64,000 nt of DNA from Rothia koreensis (GTDB taxonomy: Bacteria; Actinomycetota; Actinomycetes; Actinomycetales; Micrococcaceae), in contig NZ_NOIQ01000001.1 of assembly GCF_004136575.1 (NCBI RefSeq), positions 682,001 through 746,000 of the forward strand, written 5' to 3'. The notes beneath the pieces were generated by a model that was not told the DNA's origin, searched no databases, and worked only from the letters and a program-made list of their open reading frames with translations. This document shows positions 7,914-21,662 of this stretch, one piece after another (within the stretch, counting starts at the first letter, position 1; each line of letters opens with the position of its first letter). Both the position numbers and the translations under genes were made by a program.

Positions 7914-8002
7914 GCGCGGGTGGCGGAATAGGCAGACGCGCTAGCTTGAGGTGCTAGTCCTCGTATTAGAGGGTGGGGGTTCAAGTCCCCCCTCGCGCAC
8001 CA
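7914..8002 (+). tRNA. tRNA-Leu (GAG anticodon)
   Basis: A complete 89-base class II tRNA with the long variable arm of tRNA-Leu. The acceptor arms GCGCGGG and CTCGCGC pair with one G-U. The anticodon stem CTAGC/GCTAG encloses the loop TTGAGGT, giving anticodon GAG (reads CUC/CUU). The T-loop GGTTCAAGTCC is normal, and CCA is encoded at 8000-8002. Confidence 0.95.
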
Positions 8003-10834: not shown

Positions 10835-11947
10835 ATGACTTCGGCTGACGGGCTCTCCCTCGGGCGCATCGCGGGCATTCCCGTGCGGCTCTCGCGGTCA
10901 TGGTTCCTTCTGACTCTTCTGATCGTTTTCGGCTACGGCAGTTTCCTCTCGTCCAGATTCCCGTGGCTGGGGCCGGGTGCCTACGGAGCTGCACTGGTTT
11001 TTGCCGTGTTGCTTGCGGTCTCTGTCCTGATCCACGAGCTGAGCCACGGTCTCTCCGCGAAAGCGTTCGGGTGGTCGGTGGCCGGCATCAATCTGACCCT
11101 GATGGGAGGTCATACGACCTTCCCCTCGGGCCGCGCCAGCGCGGGCCGCTCGGCGCTGGTCTCGCTGGCTGGTCCGGTTTCGAACCTGGTTCTGGCCGCG
11201 ATCGGGTGGGCGGTACTTGCCTGGGCCGACGTCGGGGGATGGCCGGCCCTGGTGCTGTACCTGTTGACGACGTCGAACGGTTTCGTCGGCATTTTCAATC
11301 TGCTGCCCGGCATCCCACTGGACGGAGGCTACGTTGTGGAAGCCCTCGTCTGGAAGGTCACGGGGTCACGGGATGCGGGGACGCGCGCAGCCGCCGTTCT
11401 GGGATTCGTTGCTTCGGCGGGCCTCCTGGTCTGGCTCGTGGCATCAGGCGCGTGGCACAGCCTGGGAATGATCGTCCTGACGGTCATGGTCGCCTTCATC
11501 ATCCTGTCCGGTTCCCTTCAGGCGTATCGGAACATCGCCATGCGCAAGGCCGTGGGGACCCTCTCCGTGGCGGGACTGGCCAGGCCGACGGTTCCCGTCG
11601 ACCGGATGCAGCCCCTGAGCGATTTCCCGTCCCTCCCGGATCCTCGGGCCGTGTTCGTCGTCACCGGAACGGACGGCAAGGGACTCGGTGTCGTGGATGG
11701 CCAGGCCATGATGGCCGCGGATGCGGCGGGTGACCTGTCTGCGACCGCGGAATCCCTCATGGTCTCCGTCGCGTGGGACAACCCGGTTCCGGGCAACCTG
11801 AAGGGACAGGCGCTCGTCTCCCAGATCGCCCGCCTCCCCGGGCGCATTTGGCCCGTAGCATCCTGGCAAGGACGCGGTTCGGTCCTGTTCGAGACCGACG
11901 TCATCGACGCCGTCAAACGCGGTCAGTCCGATCGAAACCACCCGTAG
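10835..11947 (+). CDS. M50 site-2-type zinc metalloprotease with CBS-like tail
   Basis: Membrane-embedded protease that cleaves substrates within the bilayer. 370 residues. HELSHG (about residue 69) supplies two zinc ligands and the catalytic Glu, and NLLPGIPLDGG (about 155) the third ligand Asp. Four or more hydrophobic segments occupy the first 230 residues; the soluble tail resembles a degenerate CBS pair. It follows mshC and precedes trmI and the pupylation genes, an order common in actinobacteria. The substrate is unknown; it is not the Rip1 class by context alone. Confidence 0.87.
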   Translation: MTSADGLSLGRIAGIPVRLSRSWFLLTLLIVFGYGSFLSSRFPWLGPGAYGAALVFAVLLAVSVLIHELSHGLSAKAFGWSVAGINLTLMGGHTTFPSGRASAGRSALVSLAGPVSNLVLAAIGWAVLAWADVGGWPALVLYLLTTSNGFVGIFNLLPGIPLDGGYVVEALVWKVTGSRDAGTRAAAVLGFVASAGLLVWLVASGAWHSLGMIVLTVMVAFIILSGSLQAYRNIAMRKAVGTLSVAGLARPTVPVDRMQPLSDFPSLPDPRAVFVVTGTDGKGLGVVDGQAMMAADAAGDLSATAESLMVSVAWDNPVPGNLKGQALVSQIARLPGRIWPVASWQGRGSVLFETDVIDAVKRGQSDRNHP

Positions 11948-12031: not shown

Positions 12032-13075
12032 ATGGCCTCAGACACCTCGGCATCCCACGACGAAACGGCGACCGGCGCCCACAACCGGCGCGGTCCTTTC
12101 CGATCGGGAGACCGTGTCCAGCTGACGGACGAGCGCCGCCGAATGAATACGATCACGCTGGAAGAGGGCGGGGAATTCCACACCCACCGCGGTGTCCTGG
12201 TGCACGATGATCTCATCGGTCAGCCCGAGGGCACGGTGATCACCAATTCGGTGGGCGTCCAGTACCAGGCGTTGAGGCCCCTGCTGAAAGACTTTGTTCT
12301 CTCGATGCCTCGGGGCGCCGCGGTCGTGTACCCCAAGGACGCGGGCCAGATCATCACCATGGCCGACATCTTCCCTGGGGCCCGCGTCATCGAAGCCGGG
12401 GTCGGATCCGGCGCGCTCAGCATTTCGCTGCTCCGCGCGATCGGCGACACGGGTCACCTGCGGTCCTTCGAACGTCGCGAAGAATTCGCTGAGATCGCCC
12501 AGGGAAACGTTGAAACCATGTTCGGAGGACCCCACCCGGCCTGGAACCTCACTCTGGGGGACCTCGCCGAGCAACTGGGGGAATATGAGGCCCCGGGCAC
12601 GGTCGACCGGGCGGTCCTGGACATGTTGGCCCCCTGGGAATGCGTCTCGGCGGTGGCCACCGCGCTCGTTCCCGGCGGCGTCGTCATCTGCTACGTCGCC
12701 ACGGTGACCCAGCTGTCCCGGGTGGCAGAGGCCTTGCGGGCTGACGGAAGGTTCACCGAACCGGAGTCCTTCGAGACCATGGTCCGTGGGTGGCACGTCG
12801 AAGGCCTTGCGGTTCGCCCCGATCACCGAATGGTTGCGCACACCGGCTTCCTCATCTCCGCACGGAGGCTCGCGGACGGATCGGGGCGGCTTGCTCCGAA
12901 ACGACGGGCGTCGAAGACGGAATTCACCGAGGAGGACATGAACGCCTGGACTCCCATGGCATTGGGTGAGAGAAATGTTTCCGATCGAAAATTGCGGCGG
13001 GCTGCGCGAGATGCTCGCAAGCTTGCCGATCGCGCCGCGTACCAAGGCCACGATGCGGACCCGAGTGGAGACTAG
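12032..13075 (+). CDS. trmI: tRNA (adenine-58-N1)-methyltransferase TrmI
   Basis: SAM-dependent enzyme methylating A58 in the T-loop of tRNAs. 347 residues, somewhat longer than usual because of an unstructured N-terminal 35 residues and a basic tail. The SAM-binding loop is VIEAGVGSGALS (about residue 113), and the TrmI family start RRGPFRSGDRVQLTD is recognisable. AGGAGAT lies before ATG 12032, and a GACAAT -10 lies near 11983-11988. trmI precedes arc in many actinobacteria, which supports both calls. Confidence 0.92.
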   Translation: MASDTSASHDETATGAHNRRGPFRSGDRVQLTDERRRMNTITLEEGGEFHTHRGVLVHDDLIGQPEGTVITNSVGVQYQALRPLLKDFVLSMPRGAAVVYPKDAGQIITMADIFPGARVIEAGVGSGALSISLLRAIGDTGHLRSFERREEFAEIAQGNVETMFGGPHPAWNLTLGDLAEQLGEYEAPGTVDRAVLDMLAPWECVSAVATALVPGGVVICYVATVTQLSRVAEALRADGRFTEPESFETMVRGWHVEGLAVRPDHRMVAHTGFLISARRLADGSGRLAPKRRASKTEFTEEDMNAWTPMALGERNVSDRKLRRAARDARKLADRAAYQGHDADPSGD

Positions 13076-13101: not shown

Positions 13102-14811
13102 ATGGCCCAGTCTGACTCCACAGTGAACCAACGAGATTTCGAGATGACCCAGCGACAGGTGAACACGTTGCGCGACCAGCGCGCGGAGCTGAACCGCCGC
13201 CTCAAGGACACCACGGAGCGCAACGAGAAGCTCGTTCGTGCGCTGGAAAACGCCAGGGGAGACATCCAGCGCCTGAAGCAGGTCATCGCCCAGGATCTCG
13301 AGGCGCCCATGAACCAGGCCAAGGTGGTGAGCGTCAACCGCAGAAACCTCTCCGCGGCGTCGATGGCGGAAGACGCTCCTCCGCTGATCGCCACGCAGGA
13401 GAGTCTCGACGTCGTGATGGGTGGACGTCGCGTCCGGGTCCCGGTGAGCCCGGTTCTGGACATTGAGGACGTCCAGGTGGGTATGACCGTGCTGTTGACC
13501 GAAACCGTGGGCGCCTGCGCCTGTGTGGGTTTTCAGCAGACCGGCGACATCGCGACAGTCCGCGAACTCCTGGGACACGAACGGCTCGTCCTGGGGACGG
13601 GGTCGAATACGCAGGTCGTCGTTCTGCGATCCGGCCAACTGGCCCACCAGGAGATCAGAGTCGGCGACGCCGTCGCCTACGACCCCTCCAGCGGAGTCGC
13701 CCTGAGCATGGTTCCCAAGACGGACGCCGAGGATCTGGTGCTGGAGGAAACTCCGGACGTGTCCTACGAGAATATCGGCGGTCTCTCGTCCCAGATCGAG
13801 CAGATTCGTGACGCCGTCGAATTGCCCTTCCTTCATCCGGACCTCTACCGCGAATATGATCTCAAGCCGCCCAAGGGCATTCTGCTGTACGGGCCGCCAG
13901 GAAACGGCAAGACCATGATCGCCAAGGCCGTGGCCAAGGCCCTGGCAGATCGCATGACCGGGCAGAAGCCTGACGGGACGCTCCGCGGATACTTCTTGAA
14001 CATCAAGGGGCCGGAACTGCTGGACAAGTTCGTGGGCGAAACCGAACGGCAGATTCGCGCCATCTTCTCCCGCGCCAGGGACAAGGCCACGGCGGGCAAT
14101 CCGGTGGTCATCTTCTTCGACGAAATGGAATCCCTGTTCCGCACGCGGGGTGCGGGGAAGTCCTCGGACGTGGAGACGACGATCGTTCCGCAGCTCCTGG
14201 CCGAGATCGACGGAGTCGAGTCGTTGGACAACGTAATCGTGATCGGCGCGACGAACCGTGAGGACATGATCGATCCCGCCGTCCTGCGCCCCGGTCGCCT
14301 GGACGTCAAGGTCCGCGTGGACCGCCCGGACTACCAGGGCACGGCCGAAATTTTCGGCCTCTACGTTCATCCCGGACTCCCTCTCGAGGAACAGGAGCTG
14401 GCCCGCCACGCGGGCGACAGGGACGCGACGGTCTCGCGTTTGATCCATGAAGTCGTGGCCGAGATCTTCTCGAGGGACGAGGACCGGCGCTACCTGGATG
14501 CCGTGCTTGCCGACGGCCGCCGTATCACCACATACTGGTCGGACTTCCTGTCCGGAGCGCTGATCCGGAACATCGTCGATCGTGCCAAGAAACTCGCGAT
14601 CAAGGACTACCTGGACCACGGGCGCCGGGGCCTGAGCCTCGAGCATCTGAGGACCAGTGCCCGCGACGAATTCGAGCAGCAGCGTGACTCCGCATCCCGT
14701 GGAGACATCGAGGACTGGCTGAACTACATCGGATATTCGGTCCCGCTGACGGGCATCGAACCGCCCGAAAGCGGTACACGCGCTCGGGAGGACGAGAGGG
14801 CGGCGTCGTGA
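13102..14811 (+). CDS. arc: Proteasome-type AAA ATPase ARC (Mpa) without docking tail
   Basis: Hexameric AAA+ unfoldase that recognises Pup-tagged proteins. 569 residues: an N-terminal coiled coil (about 8-75) that binds Pup, a double OB region (about 80-215), then the AAA domain with Walker A GPPGNGKT (about 263) and Walker B VIFFDEME (about 337). The end reads ARAREDERAAS; the GQYL-type C-terminus that docks mycobacterial Mpa on the 20S proteasome is missing. dop follows with a four-base overlap. With no prcBA in the cluster, ARC probably unfolds or disassembles pupylated proteins without degrading them here, as in corynebacteria. CATGCT lies six bases before the ATG. Confidence 0.93.
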   Translation: MAQSDSTVNQRDFEMTQRQVNTLRDQRAELNRRLKDTTERNEKLVRALENARGDIQRLKQVIAQDLEAPMNQAKVVSVNRRNLSAASMAEDAPPLIATQESLDVVMGGRRVRVPVSPVLDIEDVQVGMTVLLTETVGACACVGFQQTGDIATVRELLGHERLVLGTGSNTQVVVLRSGQLAHQEIRVGDAVAYDPSSGVALSMVPKTDAEDLVLEETPDVSYENIGGLSSQIEQIRDAVELPFLHPDLYREYDLKPPKGILLYGPPGNGKTMIAKAVAKALADRMTGQKPDGTLRGYFLNIKGPELLDKFVGETERQIRAIFSRARDKATAGNPVVIFFDEMESLFRTRGAGKSSDVETTIVPQLLAEIDGVESLDNVIVIGATNREDMIDPAVLRPGRLDVKVRVDRPDYQGTAEIFGLYVHPGLPLEEQELARHAGDRDATVSRLIHEVVAEIFSRDEDRRYLDAVLADGRRITTYWSDFLSGALIRNIVDRAKKLAIKDYLDHGRRGLSLEHLRTSARDEFEQQRDSASRGDIEDWLNYIGYSVPLTGIEPPESGTRAREDERAAS

Positions 14812-16394
14812 TTTTCGAGCGCATCATGGGCACCGAAACCGAATACGGCGTCGTGTGCCCGTCCAAGCCATCGGCTCACGAGACGGTCCTCTCGACTCTC
14901 GTGGTCGATAGCTATGAGGACGCCGCGGCGGAAGCCGGATGGGACTACGAATCGGAGACCCCACTGGAGGATGCCCGGGGCTACAGCATGGGCGCCGCAG
15001 AAGCCCACCCGAGCCAGCTCACCCACCAGGGACATGTGTTGACCAGCGAGGACGTCGCGCGGGAGCTCTACGAGGAATCCCCGGACATGCTCAGCCCAGC
15101 GTTCTGGGACAGGGCGGTCATGAACCGTGTCCTCCCCAACGGTGCCCGGTTGTACGTCGACCATGCGCATCCGGAGTATTCGGCTCCCGAGACCACCGAC
15201 CCGTGGGCGGCGACCGCCTGGGATCTCGCGGGAGACCGCATCGCGGCAGCGGCTGCGGCGTCGGTGACGGACCGATACGGTTCGAGCTGGCCGGAACCCA
15301 TCAACCTGTACAAGAACAACACCGACAACAAGTCCGTCTCCTACGGTGCCCACGAGAACTATCTCGTCCCGCGCAGCCAAGACTTCCAGAGTCTCGCCAG
15401 GGACTTCATCCCGTACCTGGCCACACGCCAGGTCATCGCTGGTGCGGGCCGTGCCGGTATCGGCGCGGACGGAGTGCGGCCCGGCTTCCAAATCAGTCAG
15501 CGTGCGGATTTCTTCGAACGGGAGATCGGTCTCGAGACAACGATTCGCCGGCCCATCGTCAATACCCGGGACGAGCCGCACGCGGATTCCGACAAGTACC
15601 GCCGTCTGCACGTCATCACCGGGGATTCCAACCTCGCGCACACCTCCGTCCTTCTGAAGCTCGCGAGTGCGGCCGCGGTGCTCACACTCATCGAACACGG
15701 TTGCGCACCTGACCTCCGACTCGCCCGGCCGGTTGAAGCAATGCGTATTGTCAGTCATGATCCCGACCTCCGGGCGACGCTCGAACTGCAGGACGGACGT
15801 CGCATGACCGCGGTCCAGATGCAGCGCTCCTACGCGGAAGCCGCTCAGGACCTCGCCGACCGCGAAGGGTGGGACTCGGAGTCGAGCCGCAAGACCTTCG
15901 GAATATGGTTCGAGGTGCTCGAAGGGTTGGAGAAGGACCCCCTCTCACTCGCCGACCGTTTGGATTGGGTCGCGAAATATTCTCTGATTCGCCAGTACGA
16001 GGCGCGCGGCATCGGCGTCGATCATCCGAAGATCCAGGCGCTCGACCTCCAGTATTCGGATCTGCGTCCGGAGAAGAGTCTCTACACCAAGCTGGAATCG
16101 CTCGGACGGATCAGAAGACTGATCGAACCGGAGCGGATCGACGCCGCCGTCTCGACGCCGCCGGAAAACACTCGCGCGTATCTGAGAGGAAAACTGATCG
16201 GCCGCTGGCCCCAGGAGGTCGTATCGGCCGGCTGGGAGGTCCTGTCCGTCAAGGACCCGAGCACGGACAGAACCCACCGATGGCTCATGGACGAGCCAAC
16301 GAACTGCACCAGCGAGCAGGTTCAGCACGTGCTCGAATCGAGCAACAACGCGCATCAGGCGCTGAGCCGCATCGGTCTCCGAAGAATCCCCTGA
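14808..16394 (+). CDS. dop: Pup deamidase/depupylase Dop
   Basis: Glutamine-synthetase-fold enzyme that deamidates the C-terminal Gln of Pup to Glu and also removes Pup from substrates. 528 residues. The start region MIFERIMGTETEYGV carries the catalytic Glu cluster on the first strand; the nucleotide-binding segments NTDNKSVSYGAHENYL and NTRDEPHAD are well conserved. GTG 14808 overlaps the arc stop; ATG 14826 would be a shorter alternative. pup follows after 18 bases. Since Pup here ends in Gln, Dop is needed to activate it. Confidence 0.94.
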   Translation: MIFERIMGTETEYGVVCPSKPSAHETVLSTLVVDSYEDAAAEAGWDYESETPLEDARGYSMGAAEAHPSQLTHQGHVLTSEDVARELYEESPDMLSPAFWDRAVMNRVLPNGARLYVDHAHPEYSAPETTDPWAATAWDLAGDRIAAAAAASVTDRYGSSWPEPINLYKNNTDNKSVSYGAHENYLVPRSQDFQSLARDFIPYLATRQVIAGAGRAGIGADGVRPGFQISQRADFFEREIGLETTIRRPIVNTRDEPHADSDKYRRLHVITGDSNLAHTSVLLKLASAAAVLTLIEHGCAPDLRLARPVEAMRIVSHDPDLRATLELQDGRRMTAVQMQRSYAEAAQDLADREGWDSESSRKTFGIWFEVLEGLEKDPLSLADRLDWVAKYSLIRQYEARGIGVDHPKIQALDLQYSDLRPEKSLYTKLESLGRIRRLIEPERIDAAVSTPPENTRAYLRGKLIGRWPQEVVSAGWEVLSVKDPSTDRTHRWLMDEPTNCTSEQVQHVLESSNNAHQALSRIGLRRIP

Positions 16395-16412
16395 TCAGAA
16401 AGGACCACAGAC

Positions 16413-16613
16413 ATGGCACAATTTCGTGAATCCTCGCAAGACCGTCAGCAGAACCAGGCACGTGAGGAGGACCAGGAACTGATCGGCGCCCAGCAGCCGG
16501 TCGATCAGGGTCTCGTCAACGACACCGACGACATCCTCGACGAGATCGACAGCGTCCTGGAGGAGAACGCCGAGGACTACGTGCGCGGTTTCGTCCAGAA
16601 GGGCGGCCAGTAG
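16413..16613 (+). CDS. pup: Prokaryotic ubiquitin-like protein Pup
   Basis: Small disordered modifier attached to lysines of target proteins. 66 residues, very acidic and Gln rich, ending VQKGGQ: the C-terminal Gln must be deamidated by Dop before PafA can ligate it. The helix-forming segment that binds ARC lies in residues 25-52. GAAAGGA precedes the ATG. The gene ends only five bases before pafA; prcB and prcA, which normally separate the two, are absent. Confidence 0.96.
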
Positions 16614-16618
16614 GCCCC

Positions 16619-18052
16619 ATGGAGCAACGAATCTTCGGTATCGAAACCGAATTCGGTATCCGGTACTCAATGACCGGAATGGGGCAGCTCGGCCCGGAGG
16701 AGGCTGCGCGCAAGCTGTTTCGCCCCGTCGTCGAGTGGGGGCGGTCCTCCAACGTGTTCCTGGAAAATGGCTCGCGTCTCTACCTTGATGTCGGGTCCCA
16801 TCCGGAATATGCGACCGCTGAGTGTGCGGATCTGACTGATCTCGTCCGCCAGGACAAAGCAGGGGAGCGGCTCTTCGAAAAGCTCGCAGACCAGGCCGAG
16901 GAAGCCCTCAACCGGCAGGGGCTGGAGGGCAAGCTGTATCTGTTCAAGAACAACGCGGATTCGGCCGGCAACTCCTTCGGATCCCACGAGAACTATTTGC
17001 TCTCACGCAAGGCCGAATTCTCCAGGCTCGTGCGGTTCCTGGTTCCGTTCCTGGTGAGCCGACAGTTGGTTGTCGGTGCGGGCCGTGTCCATCCGTCGGG
17101 TCCTCCCCAGATCAACGGCGCGCCGGAAAGCGGACAACCTTCCTATTCCTTCTCCCAGAGGGCGGACTATGTGTGGGAGGCGGCTTCCTCTGCCACCACG
17201 CGATCACGACCGCTCATCAACACGCGGGACGAACCGCATGCCGATGCTGCGCAGTATAGGCGCCTTCACGTGATCGTGGGGGACTCGAACATGTCGGAGA
17301 CGACCACCTTGGCCCGAGCCGGGATGACCGACCTCATCCTGAGAATGATCGAGGACCGGCAGGGTCTGGACGATCTCGAGCTGGCGAACACCGGTCAAGC
17401 GCTCCGAACCTTGTCCCACGACCTGACCGGGCGGACCACCGTCGAGTTGAAGGATGGCCGGAAGATGTCCGGCCTCGACCTGCAGAGGCTGTATCTCGAC
17501 GCTGCGGTTTCCTACACGGATCAGCAGGGGGCACCTCGCCCGGAGACCGAATACGTCCTGGACCTCTGGGGTCGCACCCTGGACGCGATCGAAACGCAGG
17601 ACACCTCGGCGATTGATACCGAAATCGACTGGGCCATCAAGAAAAAGCTCCTGGACCGAACCGCAGAGAAGCTCGACGCCGACTATTCTCACCCACGCAT
17701 CGCACAAGTGGATCTCGCCTACCACGACATCAAGCAGAACCGAGGAGTGTTCTACCTGTTGCAGGCCAAGGGGTTGGCCCGCCGCTGGGTCAGTGAGGAG
17801 TCCGTGACCAGGGCGGAGACCGTACCTCCGGAGACCAGGGCTGCTCTTCGCGGGCGGTTCATCGCAGCGGCCCGTGCCGCGGGTCTGGATTACACGGTCG
17901 ATTGGGTGCATTTCAAGATCAATCAGCAGATTGCGCTGTCTCACTCATGCCAGGATCCCTTCGCGACGGAGGACGCCGAGGTGGAAAAATCGATCCGTGC
18001 AATGCAGGACGCGACGCGCCGGGATCAACGGGCCATGCCGCCGTTGATCTGA
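16619..18052 (+). CDS. pafA: Pup-protein ligase PafA
   Basis: Ligase that phosphorylates the C-terminal Glu of Pup and joins it to a substrate lysine. 477 residues, same fold as Dop. FGIETEFGIRYS at the N-terminus holds the catalytic Glu residues; FKNNADSAGNSFGSHENYL and NTRDEPHAD form the ATP site. It lacks the Dop-specific loop, which separates it from its paralogue upstream. Translation follows directly from pup. Downstream lie two FKBP genes and pafBC, as in other actinobacterial loci. Confidence 0.95.
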   Translation: MEQRIFGIETEFGIRYSMTGMGQLGPEEAARKLFRPVVEWGRSSNVFLENGSRLYLDVGSHPEYATAECADLTDLVRQDKAGERLFEKLADQAEEALNRQGLEGKLYLFKNNADSAGNSFGSHENYLLSRKAEFSRLVRFLVPFLVSRQLVVGAGRVHPSGPPQINGAPESGQPSYSFSQRADYVWEAASSATTRSRPLINTRDEPHADAAQYRRLHVIVGDSNMSETTTLARAGMTDLILRMIEDRQGLDDLELANTGQALRTLSHDLTGRTTVELKDGRKMSGLDLQRLYLDAAVSYTDQQGAPRPETEYVLDLWGRTLDAIETQDTSAIDTEIDWAIKKKLLDRTAEKLDADYSHPRIAQVDLAYHDIKQNRGVFYLLQAKGLARRWVSEESVTRAETVPPETRAALRGRFIAAARAAGLDYTVDWVHFKINQQIALSHSCQDPFATEDAEVEKSIRAMQDATRRDQRAMPPLI

Positions 18053-18155: not shown

Positions 18156-19163
18156 GTGCGCAAATCTCTCAAACTTTCTGCCGCCGCAATCGCTCTCACC
18201 CTCGCTCTGGCAGGGTGCGGCGGCAGCAACGATCTCGAATCCGTGGACTTCAAGGATCAGGGCAAAGGCAAGGCCCCCTCGGTGTCCTTCGACACCCCCC
18301 TGTCCGTCAAGGACGAAGACAGCCGTGTCCTGGACGAGGGCGACGGCGAGGACGTCAAGGAAGGCGACACGGTGCTCGTGGACGCGGCCGTCTTCAGCGG
18401 TGCGGACCAGAAGAGCCAGGGCGATACCTATTCCGGCTCTCCGATCACGATCACCGTCAACGACCAGCTCAAGGAAAAGCTTCCCAAGGTCTACGACATC
18501 CTGAAGGACACCAAGGTCGGAACCAGCTTCGCCTATGCCAAGAAACCCGAAGACAACTCATCCCAGGGTTCGTCGGGTGGTTCCGACGACAAGGATGCGA
18601 GCGCCGTGGAGATCTACACCGTCTCCAAGAAGCTCAAGAAGTCAGCCGAAGGTTCCGAGGTCCCACCCCAGGAGGGCCTCCCCAAGGTCACGATGAAGGA
18701 CAGCGGCCCGGAGATCTCGATCCCCGAGGGCCAGGAAGAGCCGAAGAGCGTCACCGCGCAGAACCTCATCGACGGCAGCGGAGACGAGGTCAAGGACGGC
18801 GAGAAGGTCTACGTCAAGTACTCGGGCGTGACCTGGTCCGACGGCAAGCAGTTCGATTCGAACTGGACCAAGGACCCCACTGGCTTCCCGCTGGACCAGG
18901 TCATCAAGGGGTGGGGCGAAGGTCTCAAGGGCAAGAAGGTCGGCGACCGAGTCCTCCTCGAAGTTCCCACCGACAAGGCCTACGGCAGCAAGGAACAGCT
19001 CGGTTCCGAGTCCCAGCAGCCGGCCGGTCCGCTGGTCTTCGTGATCGACATCCTGGGGACCTCCAAGGCGGATCCGCCGGAGGATTCCCAGGGCGGCTCC
19101 GGCATGCAACAGGGCGGCCAACAGGGCGGTGCCCAACAAGGCGCGCAACAGGGCGCCCAGTAG
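18156..19163 (+). CDS. FKBP-type peptidyl-prolyl isomerase lipoprotein
   Basis: Extracytoplasmic cis-trans prolyl isomerase, likely aiding folding of exported proteins. 335 residues from GTG 18156 (AGGAAA upstream). The signal peptide ends in a lipobox LALAGC at about residues 16-21. Residues 40-150 look like a degenerate FKBP domain; residues 195-305 are an intact one (VYVKYSGVTWSDGKQFDSNW, GWGEGLKGKKVGDRVLLEVP, PLVFVIDILG). The last 25 residues are a Gln/Gly/Ala repeat tail. It is separated from pafA by a 103-base gap with a TAATAC-like -10. Confidence 0.9.
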   Translation: MRKSLKLSAAAIALTLALAGCGGSNDLESVDFKDQGKGKAPSVSFDTPLSVKDEDSRVLDEGDGEDVKEGDTVLVDAAVFSGADQKSQGDTYSGSPITITVNDQLKEKLPKVYDILKDTKVGTSFAYAKKPEDNSSQGSSGGSDDKDASAVEIYTVSKKLKKSAEGSEVPPQEGLPKVTMKDSGPEISIPEGQEEPKSVTAQNLIDGSGDEVKDGEKVYVKYSGVTWSDGKQFDSNWTKDPTGFPLDQVIKGWGEGLKGKKVGDRVLLEVPTDKAYGSKEQLGSESQQPAGPLVFVIDILGTSKADPPEDSQGGSGMQQGGQQGGAQQGAQQGAQ

Positions 19164-19197
19164 CAGCGATTCACGATCCATTTCTGAAAGGAACCCC

Positions 19198-19599
19198 ATG
19201 TCATTCGGACAGCGCAATCTCGACCGCACCAAACCCGAGATCGATTTTCCTGAAGGACCTGTGCCCGAGTCGCTGCGCGTGACCGACCTGATCGAGGGAT
19301 CAGGCCGGGCGGTGGAGCGCGGAGACCAGGTCACGTGCCATTACGTCGGAGTGACATTCGACGGCGGCGAAGAATTCGACGCGTCGTGGAACCGGGGAGA
19401 GCCGCTGGCGTTCCGGGCCGGCGTCGGACAGGTCATCCAGGGTTGGGACGAAGGTCTGATCGGAATGAAGGTTGGTGGGCGCCGCCGATTGGAGATTCCG
19501 TCCGAGCTCGCATACGGCAAGCGCGGCGCCGGGAACGTGATTGGCCCGGATCAGGCCCTCGTATTCGTGGTCGACCTCGTCGAGGCCCGCTCATCGTGA
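19198..19599 (+). CDS. Cytoplasmic FKBP-type peptidyl-prolyl isomerase
   Basis: Single-domain prolyl isomerase of 133 residues without a signal peptide. The FKBP core is complete: VTCHYVGVTFDGGEEFDASW, VIQGWDEGLIGMKVGGRRRL, PSELAYGKRG and ALVFVVDLVE. GAAAGGAA precedes ATG 19198, 34 bases after the lipoprotein FKBP, so the two are probably one operon and form a secreted/cytoplasmic pair. The pairing next to pafA and pafBC is common in Micrococcales. Confidence 0.92.
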   Translation: MSFGQRNLDRTKPEIDFPEGPVPESLRVTDLIEGSGRAVERGDQVTCHYVGVTFDGGEEFDASWNRGEPLAFRAGVGQVIQGWDEGLIGMKVGGRRRLEIPSELAYGKRGAGNVIGPDQALVFVVDLVEARSS

Positions 19600-19637: not shown

Positions 19638-21662
19638 GTGCCCGTCAAGGTTCCCGAGCGCTTGTTCGCGCTGTACGGTTTCATGCTTTCCCACGAGCGG
19701 CCGGTTCCGAGGCAGAGGATCCGGGACAGCATCGACGCGTACCGGAGCATCGGTTCGGACTCGGCCTTCGAGCGAACCTTCGAGCGAGACAAGGCTGCCC
19801 TGCGACATCTGGGCATGAAGATTGCGGCCATCCAGGATTATGGCGAGACCCTGTATCGGATCGAGCGGGAGAATCTGTGGCTCGGTCGCGAGGAATTCAC
19901 CCCGGCGGAGAGGCTGACGCTCGGAATTGCGGCACGCCTGTGGTCCGATCCCAATTATGCGAACGACGCCGAGCGGGCCGTCCGGCGGCTCGGCTACGGT
20001 GAACAGGATGCTGACGGCGCCGTTGCGCTGACGCACGTGACACCGCGCCTCAGCGGAGGCGGGGGACATCTCGAAACGATTCTCGGGGCGCTGGCGCACG
20101 GCTCCGAGGTTTCCTTCTCCTACAGGTCCGCCCATTCCCTGGACACATCACGACGCCGCTTTCGCCCGTGGGGCGTAGGTCAGCGATTCGACCATTGGTA
20201 TGTCAGCGGGTGGGACGCCGATCGGCAGGCTCTGCGCAACTTCCGTCTGTCGCGAATGACGTCCATGTCGGTGCGCGAATCGAGCCTTCCCGGAGCGCCC
20301 GAGGACTTCTCGATGCAGTCCGTGTTGGAGGGCATTTCGGAATCGCCCGCGCCGGAGGTCGTCCTCCGTTGCACGGTGGGTGCAGCCCCCGTGGTCCTGG
20401 ACTGGTCGGAATCGGGTACGGGATTGCGGCTCCAAGAAGCTTTCCCGGAGACCGACTCCGTGACGCGAATCGTTGAAGCTGCTGTCGATGTTCCGGATGT
20501 CCTCGAATTCGTTCGTTGCCTGGCCGAGTTGGGTTCCGGAGTCGAGTTCAGCGTCCCCGAGGGGCAGGAGCTCGATGAGGACTCCGTTCGTCGCGAGGTG
20601 GATCGCACCATACAGAGGGCGATCGACCTCCAGGGGCGCGTTTCCGCGGCCGTCACCGACCGGGATACCGAGATCATCGAGCCCAAGCGTGGCAGGAACA
20701 GAGAGTCCAACGACCGTCGATTTGTGCGACTCGTGGATCTGGCGTCTTACGTGGGAAGCAACCCGGGGTGCGCAATCCGGGACATCTCTCGGCATCTACA
20801 TGTCAGTGCGGCCCAGGTCAGGCAGGATATCGACGCCCTTGCCAACGCGAGCGACGAGATTCTCGGCGGAGCGTATCTGCGGGTGACGGCGTACGACGAC
20901 GAAGTCTTCGTCGAACTTCCCGAGGAGCTCGGGCGTGCACTGAACTTGGCGCCGGACCAGACGATCCGACTATTGCTGGCAATCCAACTGCTGGGCCAGG
21001 TTTCCCCGGACCACGCGCGCACCGTTGAAGAGATCTCCCGAAAACTCGTCAGTGGCGCCAACGGCGCGGGCGTGTCCTCCGACCAGCTGTCGATTCGCTT
21101 GGAACCACAGATCGCGAAAACCGTGGATGCCCTGCGAGCAGCTGCCGATAGCGGACGGATGGTCGAGATCGATTACCGCTCGCGTGGCCAGACGGCCCCC
21201 AGCGAACGACGGGTGAGACCCCACGACGTCTATTCACGAGGAAATACCTGGTACCTCGAGGCGGAAAGTCCTGCTCATGCAGAGATCAGGACCTATCGGA
21301 TTGAGGCGATTCGTGGTCTTCGGGTGGTCGAGGCCGCTGAGGACGACGTCGTCCCGGCGCAACGGGAGTCTCGCCCTGAGCCCGCTCGAACTCTCGTGTG
21401 GGTCGCCGCCGATGCCGAGCCTCTGGCGGAAGTCTTGGGGGGAGAGATCCTCGGTCACGCGGACGTTCCGGGCTCGGCGGACGACGGCGAAACGCCGCAA
21501 TCCGGACTCGTGATCGAGATCGATGTCATCGACTGGTTCAGCCTGTACCGATTGATGCTCCATCATGCCGGGTCCATGGCATTGTGGAGGGCGCGTCCCT
21601 GGACAACGCAGTGGTACGAATCCGCGAAGGCGCGGGGGATCGATGTCGCCGGGTCCTGGTGA
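19638..21662 (+). CDS. pafBC: PafBC fused WYL-domain DNA-damage regulator
   Basis: Transcriptional activator of the LexA-independent DNA-damage response in actinobacteria. 674 residues, about twice a single WYL protein: two copies of winged HTH, WYL and WCX domains in tandem (roughly residues 1-320 and 345-674). In mycobacteria these are separate pafB and pafC; a natural fusion is known in Arthrobacter. Each WYL core is visible (WGVGQRFDHWYVSGWD; YSRGNTWYLEAE). The start is GTG 19638, with TAGGCC six bases upstream and no Shine-Dalgarno, so it may be leaderless and separately controlled from the FKBP genes. Confidence 0.92.
   Translation: MPVKVPERLFALYGFMLSHERPVPRQRIRDSIDAYRSIGSDSAFERTFERDKAALRHLGMKIAAIQDYGETLYRIERENLWLGREEFTPAERLTLGIAARLWSDPNYANDAERAVRRLGYGEQDADGAVALTHVTPRLSGGGGHLETILGALAHGSEVSFSYRSAHSLDTSRRRFRPWGVGQRFDHWYVSGWDADRQALRNFRLSRMTSMSVRESSLPGAPEDFSMQSVLEGISESPAPEVVLRCTVGAAPVVLDWSESGTGLRLQEAFPETDSVTRIVEAAVDVPDVLEFVRCLAELGSGVEFSVPEGQELDEDSVRREVDRTIQRAIDLQGRVSAAVTDRDTEIIEPKRGRNRESNDRRFVRLVDLASYVGSNPGCAIRDISRHLHVSAAQVRQDIDALANASDEILGGAYLRVTAYDDEVFVELPEELGRALNLAPDQTIRLLLAIQLLGQVSPDHARTVEEISRKLVSGANGAGVSSDQLSIRLEPQIAKTVDALRAAADSGRMVEIDYRSRGQTAPSERRVRPHDVYSRGNTWYLEAESPAHAEIRTYRIEAIRGLRVVEAAEDDVVPAQRESRPEPARTLVWVAADAEPLAEVLGGEILGHADVPGSADDGETPQSGLVIEIDVIDWFSLYRLMLHHAGSMALWRARPWTTQWYESAKARGIDVAGSW

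Follow-up and report, generated by a model that had tools for sequence, protein, structure and literature searches.

Pupylation without a 20S proteasome is already in print for some actinobacteria, and the accessible parts of the reviews cover Corynebacterium and Micrococcus (PMC3511204, PMC8223512). In corynebacteria, according to the excerpt available of PMC3511204, pup directly precedes pafA, the ATPase is kept and its C-terminal proteasome motif is gone. For C. glutamicum, excerpts of two papers state that ARC dismantles pupylated ferritin without degradation (PMC8223512, PMC12288473), and a figure legend on 20S-less loci in the former names Micrococcus luteus. Here we describe the arc-dop-pup-pafA locus of Rothia koreensis, a member of the Micrococcaceae, within a stretch of 64,000 nucleotides (the window; G000:C11:682001-746000 of the window genome, G000). 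The window locus is a further case of the published arrangement; what is new is the family history in which the 20S core, the ARC docking tail and Bpa were lost. In the open-licence literature we came across no account of a tail-less ARC in actinobacteria that have a 20S, of a prcA stump or of a loss count in Micrococcaceae. Our preferred reading, to which we give a probability of roughly 0.65, is that the window holds a pupylation operon whose 20S partner was secondarily lost and which was retained for a non-proteasomal job, ARC most likely unfolding or disassembling pupylated complexes and Dop recycling Pup.

All four genes are intact and adjacent (Table 1), as the first-pass annotation of this DNA had held, and their products pass the NCBIfam cut-offs. 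The arc and dop frames overlap by 4 nt; the pup stop codon ends at 16613 and the pafA ATG begins at 16619, which bears out the five-base gap noted in that annotation, whereas the same distance in 20S-bearing relatives is 1483-1701 nt. This is the pup locus type without 20S, with pup placed directly before pafA. ARC has intact Walker A (GPPGNGKT) and Walker B (FFDE) motifs, Dop carries the conserved residues E10, E12, D118, H121 and E123, and PafA the conserved E9, E11, D57, H61 and E63. Pup ends in GFVQKGGQ beside an intact dop, again as annotated, and because its end is GGQ, deamidation by Dop is needed ahead of ligation. The annotation overlooked the strongest local evidence, which lies in the window ARC itself: its C terminus reads ...PPESGTRAREDERAAS, and the 20S-docking motif GQYL is absent from the end.

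The proposal that prcB and prcA are missing also held beyond the window, where prcBA elsewhere in the genome, named by the first-pass annotation as its refutation, did not turn up. A search of the whole window genome (2.91 Mb, 44 contigs, 99.95% complete, unclosed) with PF00227, which covers HslV as well as the alpha and beta subunits of the 20S, gave zero matches, so that neither a 20S nor an HslV-type subunit was found. Since we take Anbu to be a member of the same family, neither HslV nor Anbu was seen as a replacement core. The same search matched 10 of 14 control genomes and 135 of 245 family genomes, and prcBA of ordinary divergence would therefore have shown, with the limit that in G093 it detected PrcB and missed a divergent PrcA, both of which were read directly in the G093 locus. 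The 17 other sampled genomes of Rothia (g1) lack a PF00227 match as well, and all 18 keep Pup; this comparison with close relatives, suggested in the first-pass annotation, argues against an absence by chance. Bpa (PF10759) gave no match in the window genome or in any of the 14 controls. Thus 20S subunits, the ARC GQYL tail and Bpa, the canonical features of a Pup-proteasome, were all not found in the window genome. One might still suppose that prcBA is present and was missed through annotation or assembly, given the 44 unclosed contigs and a family model able to miss a very divergent subunit such as the G093 PrcA; with pup and pafA 5 nt apart on one contig, and with the single-contig G233 among the 17 relatives that lack a match, such an artefact is hardly credible.

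Across the Micrococcaceae, Pup was found in 244 of 245 genomes and PF00227 in 135 (236 and 131, respectively, of the 236 good-quality genomes). The only genome without a Pup match, G067, has a completeness of 82%. With the window ARC as query, a protein search matched 245 of 245 genomes, although the weakest match (G189, 4.8e-38) may stem from a different AAA protein. The annotation's premise, a prcBA pair between pup and pafA in most actinobacteria, is weakened within this family, in which 110 of the 245 genomes lack PF00227; in Rothia the domain is found in 0 of 18 genomes, against Pup in 18 of 18. At the level of the order (248 genomes), PF00227 occurs in 144 genomes and Pup in 226; a hand cross-tabulation gives 143 with both, 83 with Pup alone, one with PF00227 alone (G401, 77% complete) and 21 with neither. 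At least 15 of these 21 belong to family f19, which seems to have lost the whole Pup pathway, and two others, G455 and G465, were identified by elimination. None of the 15 f19 genomes listed without Pup is among the PF00227 matches.

Where the pathway is kept, the conserved positions checked are kept with it. In our alignments the five PafA residues named above are invariant in 121 of 121 rows, with or without 20S, and their Dop counterparts in 120 of 120; the ARC Walker A and B motifs are invariant in 119 of 119 rows, save one Walker A position (C, N or T). The roles of these positions we take to be catalytic. Nonsynonymous against synonymous divergence (dN/dS) between the window and locus L161 is 0.098/1.493 for ARC and 0.106/2.185 for PafA, with dS near saturation; dS exceeds 1 in most window comparisons within Rothia, and the closer pair L166 and L167 agrees with them (PafA, 0.019/0.290). 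All four window genes are under purifying selection. These observations bear on the idea that the locus is a remnant in decay and heading for loss, for which one could cite the order genomes that have neither Pup nor PF00227, concentrated in f19, and the smaller size of 20S-less genomes (median 2.80 Mb, n=29, versus 3.85 Mb, n=20, for 20S-bearing ones; p 0.125 when genome size was set against the 20S in independent pairs). The presence of Pup in every good-quality family genome, the invariant residues and the low dN/dS largely refute decay, and we hold it to be very improbable.

The state of the ARC tail was compared with that of the core at the pup locus in 119 further genomes (120 stretches, G167 being represented by two) and the window, a sample of 120 genomes chosen to cover genera and not at random. 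In the 50 genomes with prcBA, ARC has GQYL in 45 and lacks it in 5; in the 70 without prcBA, GQYL is missing from 68 and present in one (G008), and in the remaining one (G148, L224) ARC lies off the piece. The two states thus match in 113 of 119 genomes, and the six mismatches, G008 with the tail only and G001 (g2), G093, G110, G155 and G167 (the last four from g21) with 20S only, show both orders of decay, core first and tail first. Among 80 named loci, 53 contain a whole ARC, of which 46 have both GQYL and prcBA, 7 have neither and none is mixed; prcBA is present in 25 of the 27 named loci without a whole ARC. An independent-pairs test of 20S against tail, with seven pairs on starred branches, gave a mean of 4.7 in the same direction and 0 in the opposite one and was not significant (p 0.0625). 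Flags for prcB in L233, L234 and L236 were dropped: at 47.8-53.1 bits, against at least 218 bits in 20S-bearing loci, they came from an open reading frame (ORF) overlapping pup and were gone with a trimmed query.

If the preferred reading is correct, Dop would deamidate Pup-Gln to Pup-Glu and PafA would ligate Pup-Glu onto lysines of target proteins; ARC would then grip Pup and pull the tagged subunit apart without hand-over to a protease, so that assemblies would be dismantled or inactivated, and Dop would strip Pup, letting both tag and subunit be reused. The scheme is the one published for ferritin in C. glutamicum. Alternatively, ARC may pass pupylated proteins on to some other protease, such as Clp or FtsH, in which case the pathway would still degrade. 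The conservation of the Walker motifs fits such continued threading of substrates; yet a new docking motif would be expected to be conserved, and in genomes without 20S the ARC tail differs from lineage to lineage, while the only protease gene scanned near the operon encodes an M50-type peptidase (10835-11947), not a known ARC partner. We regard this alternative as unlikely. It is also improbable, in our estimation, that Pup serves as a reversible, non-degradative mark that alters activity or partners, with ARC used occasionally or otherwise: the invariance of the checked PafA and Dop positions, with and without 20S, would suit it, but ARC is kept in 69 of 70 20S-less loci, the remaining piece (L224) ending before the arc site, and this retention indicates that ARC is part of the retained function.

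Three points nevertheless weigh against non-proteasomal unfolding by ARC as the retained job. Any activity or target of ARC in Rothia is a prediction; hand-over of pupylated proteins to another protease is possible; and, of 34 20S-less genomes, 19 encode a ferritin-type protein and 15 have only weaker PF00210 matches in the range of Dps. More broadly, PF00210 was found in 41 of 41 genomes searched, ferritin-type in 23 and Dps-type only in 18, the two types being called by bit score (at least 105.6 versus at most 91.7) and from ten sequences that were read. Because a ferritin-type match is missing from 15 of the 34 20S-less genomes, the one demonstrated substrate cannot explain retention everywhere, and ferritin was rejected as the general reason for keeping pupylation. 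The window genome itself holds one ferritin-type and one Dps-type gene, and a release of ferritin iron, the stored cofactor of the first-pass annotation, is possible there; the targets in Rothia are probably wider than ferritin. Taken as a whole, that annotation's interpretation is partly supported.

In G008 (L178), the core went ahead of the tail. Its pup-pafA spacer of 272 nt still encodes the 3' end of prcA (best tblastn alignment 43 columns, 58% identity to g15 PrcA, E 3.5e-12, in a search of this single short stretch), while ARC ends in NTGQYL. Only a prcA stump is left and the docking tail is intact; the loss seems recent and may be still in progress. The Bpa of G008 (L383) is a 139-residue frame that retains STGQYL and, in a by-eye comparison with full-length Bpa, is without most of the N-terminal region and one internal segment.

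Across the family, the Bpa model PF10759 matches 120 of 245 genomes, 119 of them over the cut-off; by hand cross-tabulation, these comprise 118 of the 135 genomes with PF00227 and one of the 110 without it, the shortened Bpa of G008. An independent-pairs test of 20S against Bpa was not significant (p 0.0625). The 17 genomes with PF00227 and without Bpa over the cut-off come from g2 (1), g15 (3), g21 (4), g25 (2) and g31 (5), together with G076 (weak match only) and G106. A 2021 review, in the part accessible to us, ascribes Bpa to every actinobacterium that has a 20S (PMC8223512); this statement does not hold in the present family, with draft genomes among the 17. All three g15 genomes and both g25 genomes are among the 17, and the two ARCs read from each of these genera carry a terminal GQYL.

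The history of these losses was traced on a quick IQ-TREE phylogeny of RpoB and RpoC (54 genomes, 49 from the family and 5 outgroup; 2455 columns). Rothia and g5 form a clade (support 100, starred) that is sister to the remaining sampled family members (support 94), and g12, g3, g14, g2, g16 and g21 form another, clade X (100, starred). With gains allowed, the tree needs a minimum of 8 changes in the 20S and 6 in the tail; with losses only, the counts are 11 and 7. A single 20S loss for all sampled 20S-less members was rejected by the AU (approximately unbiased) test (p 3.86e-59), as were a single clade of all tail-less rows (p 6.34e-9) and a single 20S loss inside clade X, which was named after the tree was seen (p 1.79e-47). 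Every row of clade X is tail-less, and the 20S is retained only in g2 and part of g21. In a tree of PrcB and PrcA (59 rows), g2 and g21 are sisters (100, starred) on a branch of 1.52, next to g30, g22 and g17 (support 88, not starred). Such a pattern favours a history in which the tail of clade X would have been lost first, with the 20S surviving and then, barring any regain, disappearing five times. One of these five losses depends on g3 and g14 as a clade (support 82), and the weight of this history is limited by the support of 88, the long PrcBA branch and the quick tree method. That g2 and g21 regained prcBA by transfer is disfavoured, their PrcBA being sisters placed near the species-tree position of clade X, although the long branch weakens that placement and the 8-change count with gains leaves room for it. 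In a locus tree (TrmI, ARC, Dop and PafA), Rothia and g5 fall within a single tail-less clade (support 1.0), with loss-only counts of 13 for the 20S and 5 for the tail. RpoB and RpoC do not give this grouping, though the AU test speaks only weakly against it (X+g1+g5, p 0.041), and in our judgement the locus tree is distorted by fast evolution after uncoupling. The order of tail and 20S loss is unreadable in Rothia and g5, because no sampled member of that clade keeps either part.

Five genomes keep 20S genes beside a tail-less ARC. In g2 (G001, L241) and g21 (L183, L186, L187, L189/L190; G093, G110, G155, G167), prcBA lies between pup and pafA, and PrcB has intact Thr1, Asp and Lys motifs, whose roles we presume to be the usual ones. 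Between G110 and G155 of g21, dN/dS is 0.037/0.599 for PrcB and 0.058/0.83 for PrcA, low values from which we conclude that prcBA is still under selection in this genus. No GQYL was found at the end of the four g21 ARCs or, for G001, in any of three frames around the stop. Bpa had no match in these five genomes. As a candidate for the missing activator, a Cdc48-type or Cpa ATPase was sought with TIGR01243, which stayed below the cut-off in each of 18 genomes, G001, G093, G110 and G155 among them; the search left out G167 (71% complete), Cpa itself was not a query, there was no Cpa-bearing actinobacterium as control and a divergent Cpa could have escaped it. That the alpha-ring pocket was lost was mostly rejected as well, given that PrcA R26, K52, E119 and D144, which are among the GQYL contacts in the available text of PMC9599533, are kept. 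In all five g2 and g21 PrcA rows, S146 is replaced by T and K22 by Q or A, while S and K stand in 115 of 115 other rows. A precedent for a 20S lacking its usual activators is Propionibacterium acnes, which, in the excerpt of PMC4254994, has prcBA without ARC and Bpa. This is what the two cases share; unlike in P. acnes, ARC, Pup, Dop and PafA adjoin prcBA in g2 and g21, and only the docking tail of ARC is gone. Tentatively, and with the odds rather against it, the ATPase and Pup might be the module with the conserved function in Micrococcaceae and the 20S a dispensable add-on: the ARC of one clade would have dropped its tail beside a working 20S, and the uncoupled 20S would survive in g2 and g21 with an undescribed activator or none, having otherwise been lost repeatedly.

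The family comparison makes testable what pupylation does without a proteasome. It supplies natural experiments in G008 (20S seemingly lost recently, tail intact, Bpa shortened, prcA stump), in a within-genus contrast between G077 and six congeners, and in g21, in which ARC is without the 20S tail and prcBA is under selection.

Around the window locus (Table 1), the tRNA methyltransferase gene upstream of arc is outside the pathway, and FKBP genes are named among pup-locus neighbours in the accessible part of PMC2588565. PafB and PafC look fused in the downstream regulator, which has no NCBIfam match but matches WYL and HTH_PafC in Pfam. Promoter and terminator scans gave signals no better than chance, and a tRNA-Leu (gag) at 7914-8002 is the sole RNA gene detected in the window. 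The closest named Pup to that of the window is from Rothia santali (71% identity, in a comparison that may omit very near records). A Pup 50% identical to that of the window is encoded by L021, a contig labelled as a Candidatus Saccharibacteria metagenome-assembled genome that may be actinobacterial DNA put in the wrong bin. Of the 118 loci with a Pup hit, 7 (L176, L177, L189, L214, L217, L218 and L220) encode a Pup whose last residues are GGE, not GGQ; dop is present, and in those loci Dop would be needed as a depupylase only.

Table 1. Features of the pupylation locus and its surroundings in the window
Feature	Position	Strand	Details
M50-type membrane peptidase	10835-11947		near operon; scan of neighbouring genes
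TrmI-type tRNA methyltransferase	12032..13075	+	upstream neighbour of arc; tree marker
arc (Mpa/ARC AAA ATPase, 569 aa)	13102..14811	+	ORF; TIGR03689, 670.4 bits
dop (depupylase/Pup deamidase, 528 aa)	14808..16394	+	GTG start; TIGR03688, 574.4 bits
pup (66 aa)	16413..16613	+	TIGR03687, 71.1 bits
pup-pafA spacer (5 nt)	16614..16618	+	site of prcB and prcA in 20S-bearing relatives
pafA (Pup ligase, 477 aa)	16619..18052	+	TIGR03686, 655.5 bits
Two FKBP-type prolyl isomerase genes	18156..19599	+	18156-19163; second ORF 19129-19599, scanned from 19201
PafBC-like regulator (single 674-aa ORF)	19638..21662	+	Pfam matches to WYL and the PafC helix-turn-helix (HTH_PafC)

Compared with the Pup-proteasome system of Mycobacterium tuberculosis, the window encodes homologous ARC/Mpa, Dop, Pup and PafA, and its genome differs in being without PrcA, PrcB, the GQYL tail and Bpa. 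Nearer at hand, the g3 loci, which are taken as Micrococcus and come from the same family, likewise have neither prcBA nor GQYL; yet Rothia and g5 stand in a clade apart from the one that bears g3, and a loss-only history implies a separate loss. Corynebacterium glutamicum belongs to a different order of actinobacteria than Rothia. Its locus and that of the window are alike in keeping arc, dop, pup and pafA, with pup directly before pafA and no prcBA. The likeness to corynebacteria that the first-pass annotation had drawn is correct, it is published, and, as far as the excerpt of PMC3511204 goes, it extends to ARC itself, the corynebacterial and the window ATPase having both dispensed with the C-terminal proteasome motif.

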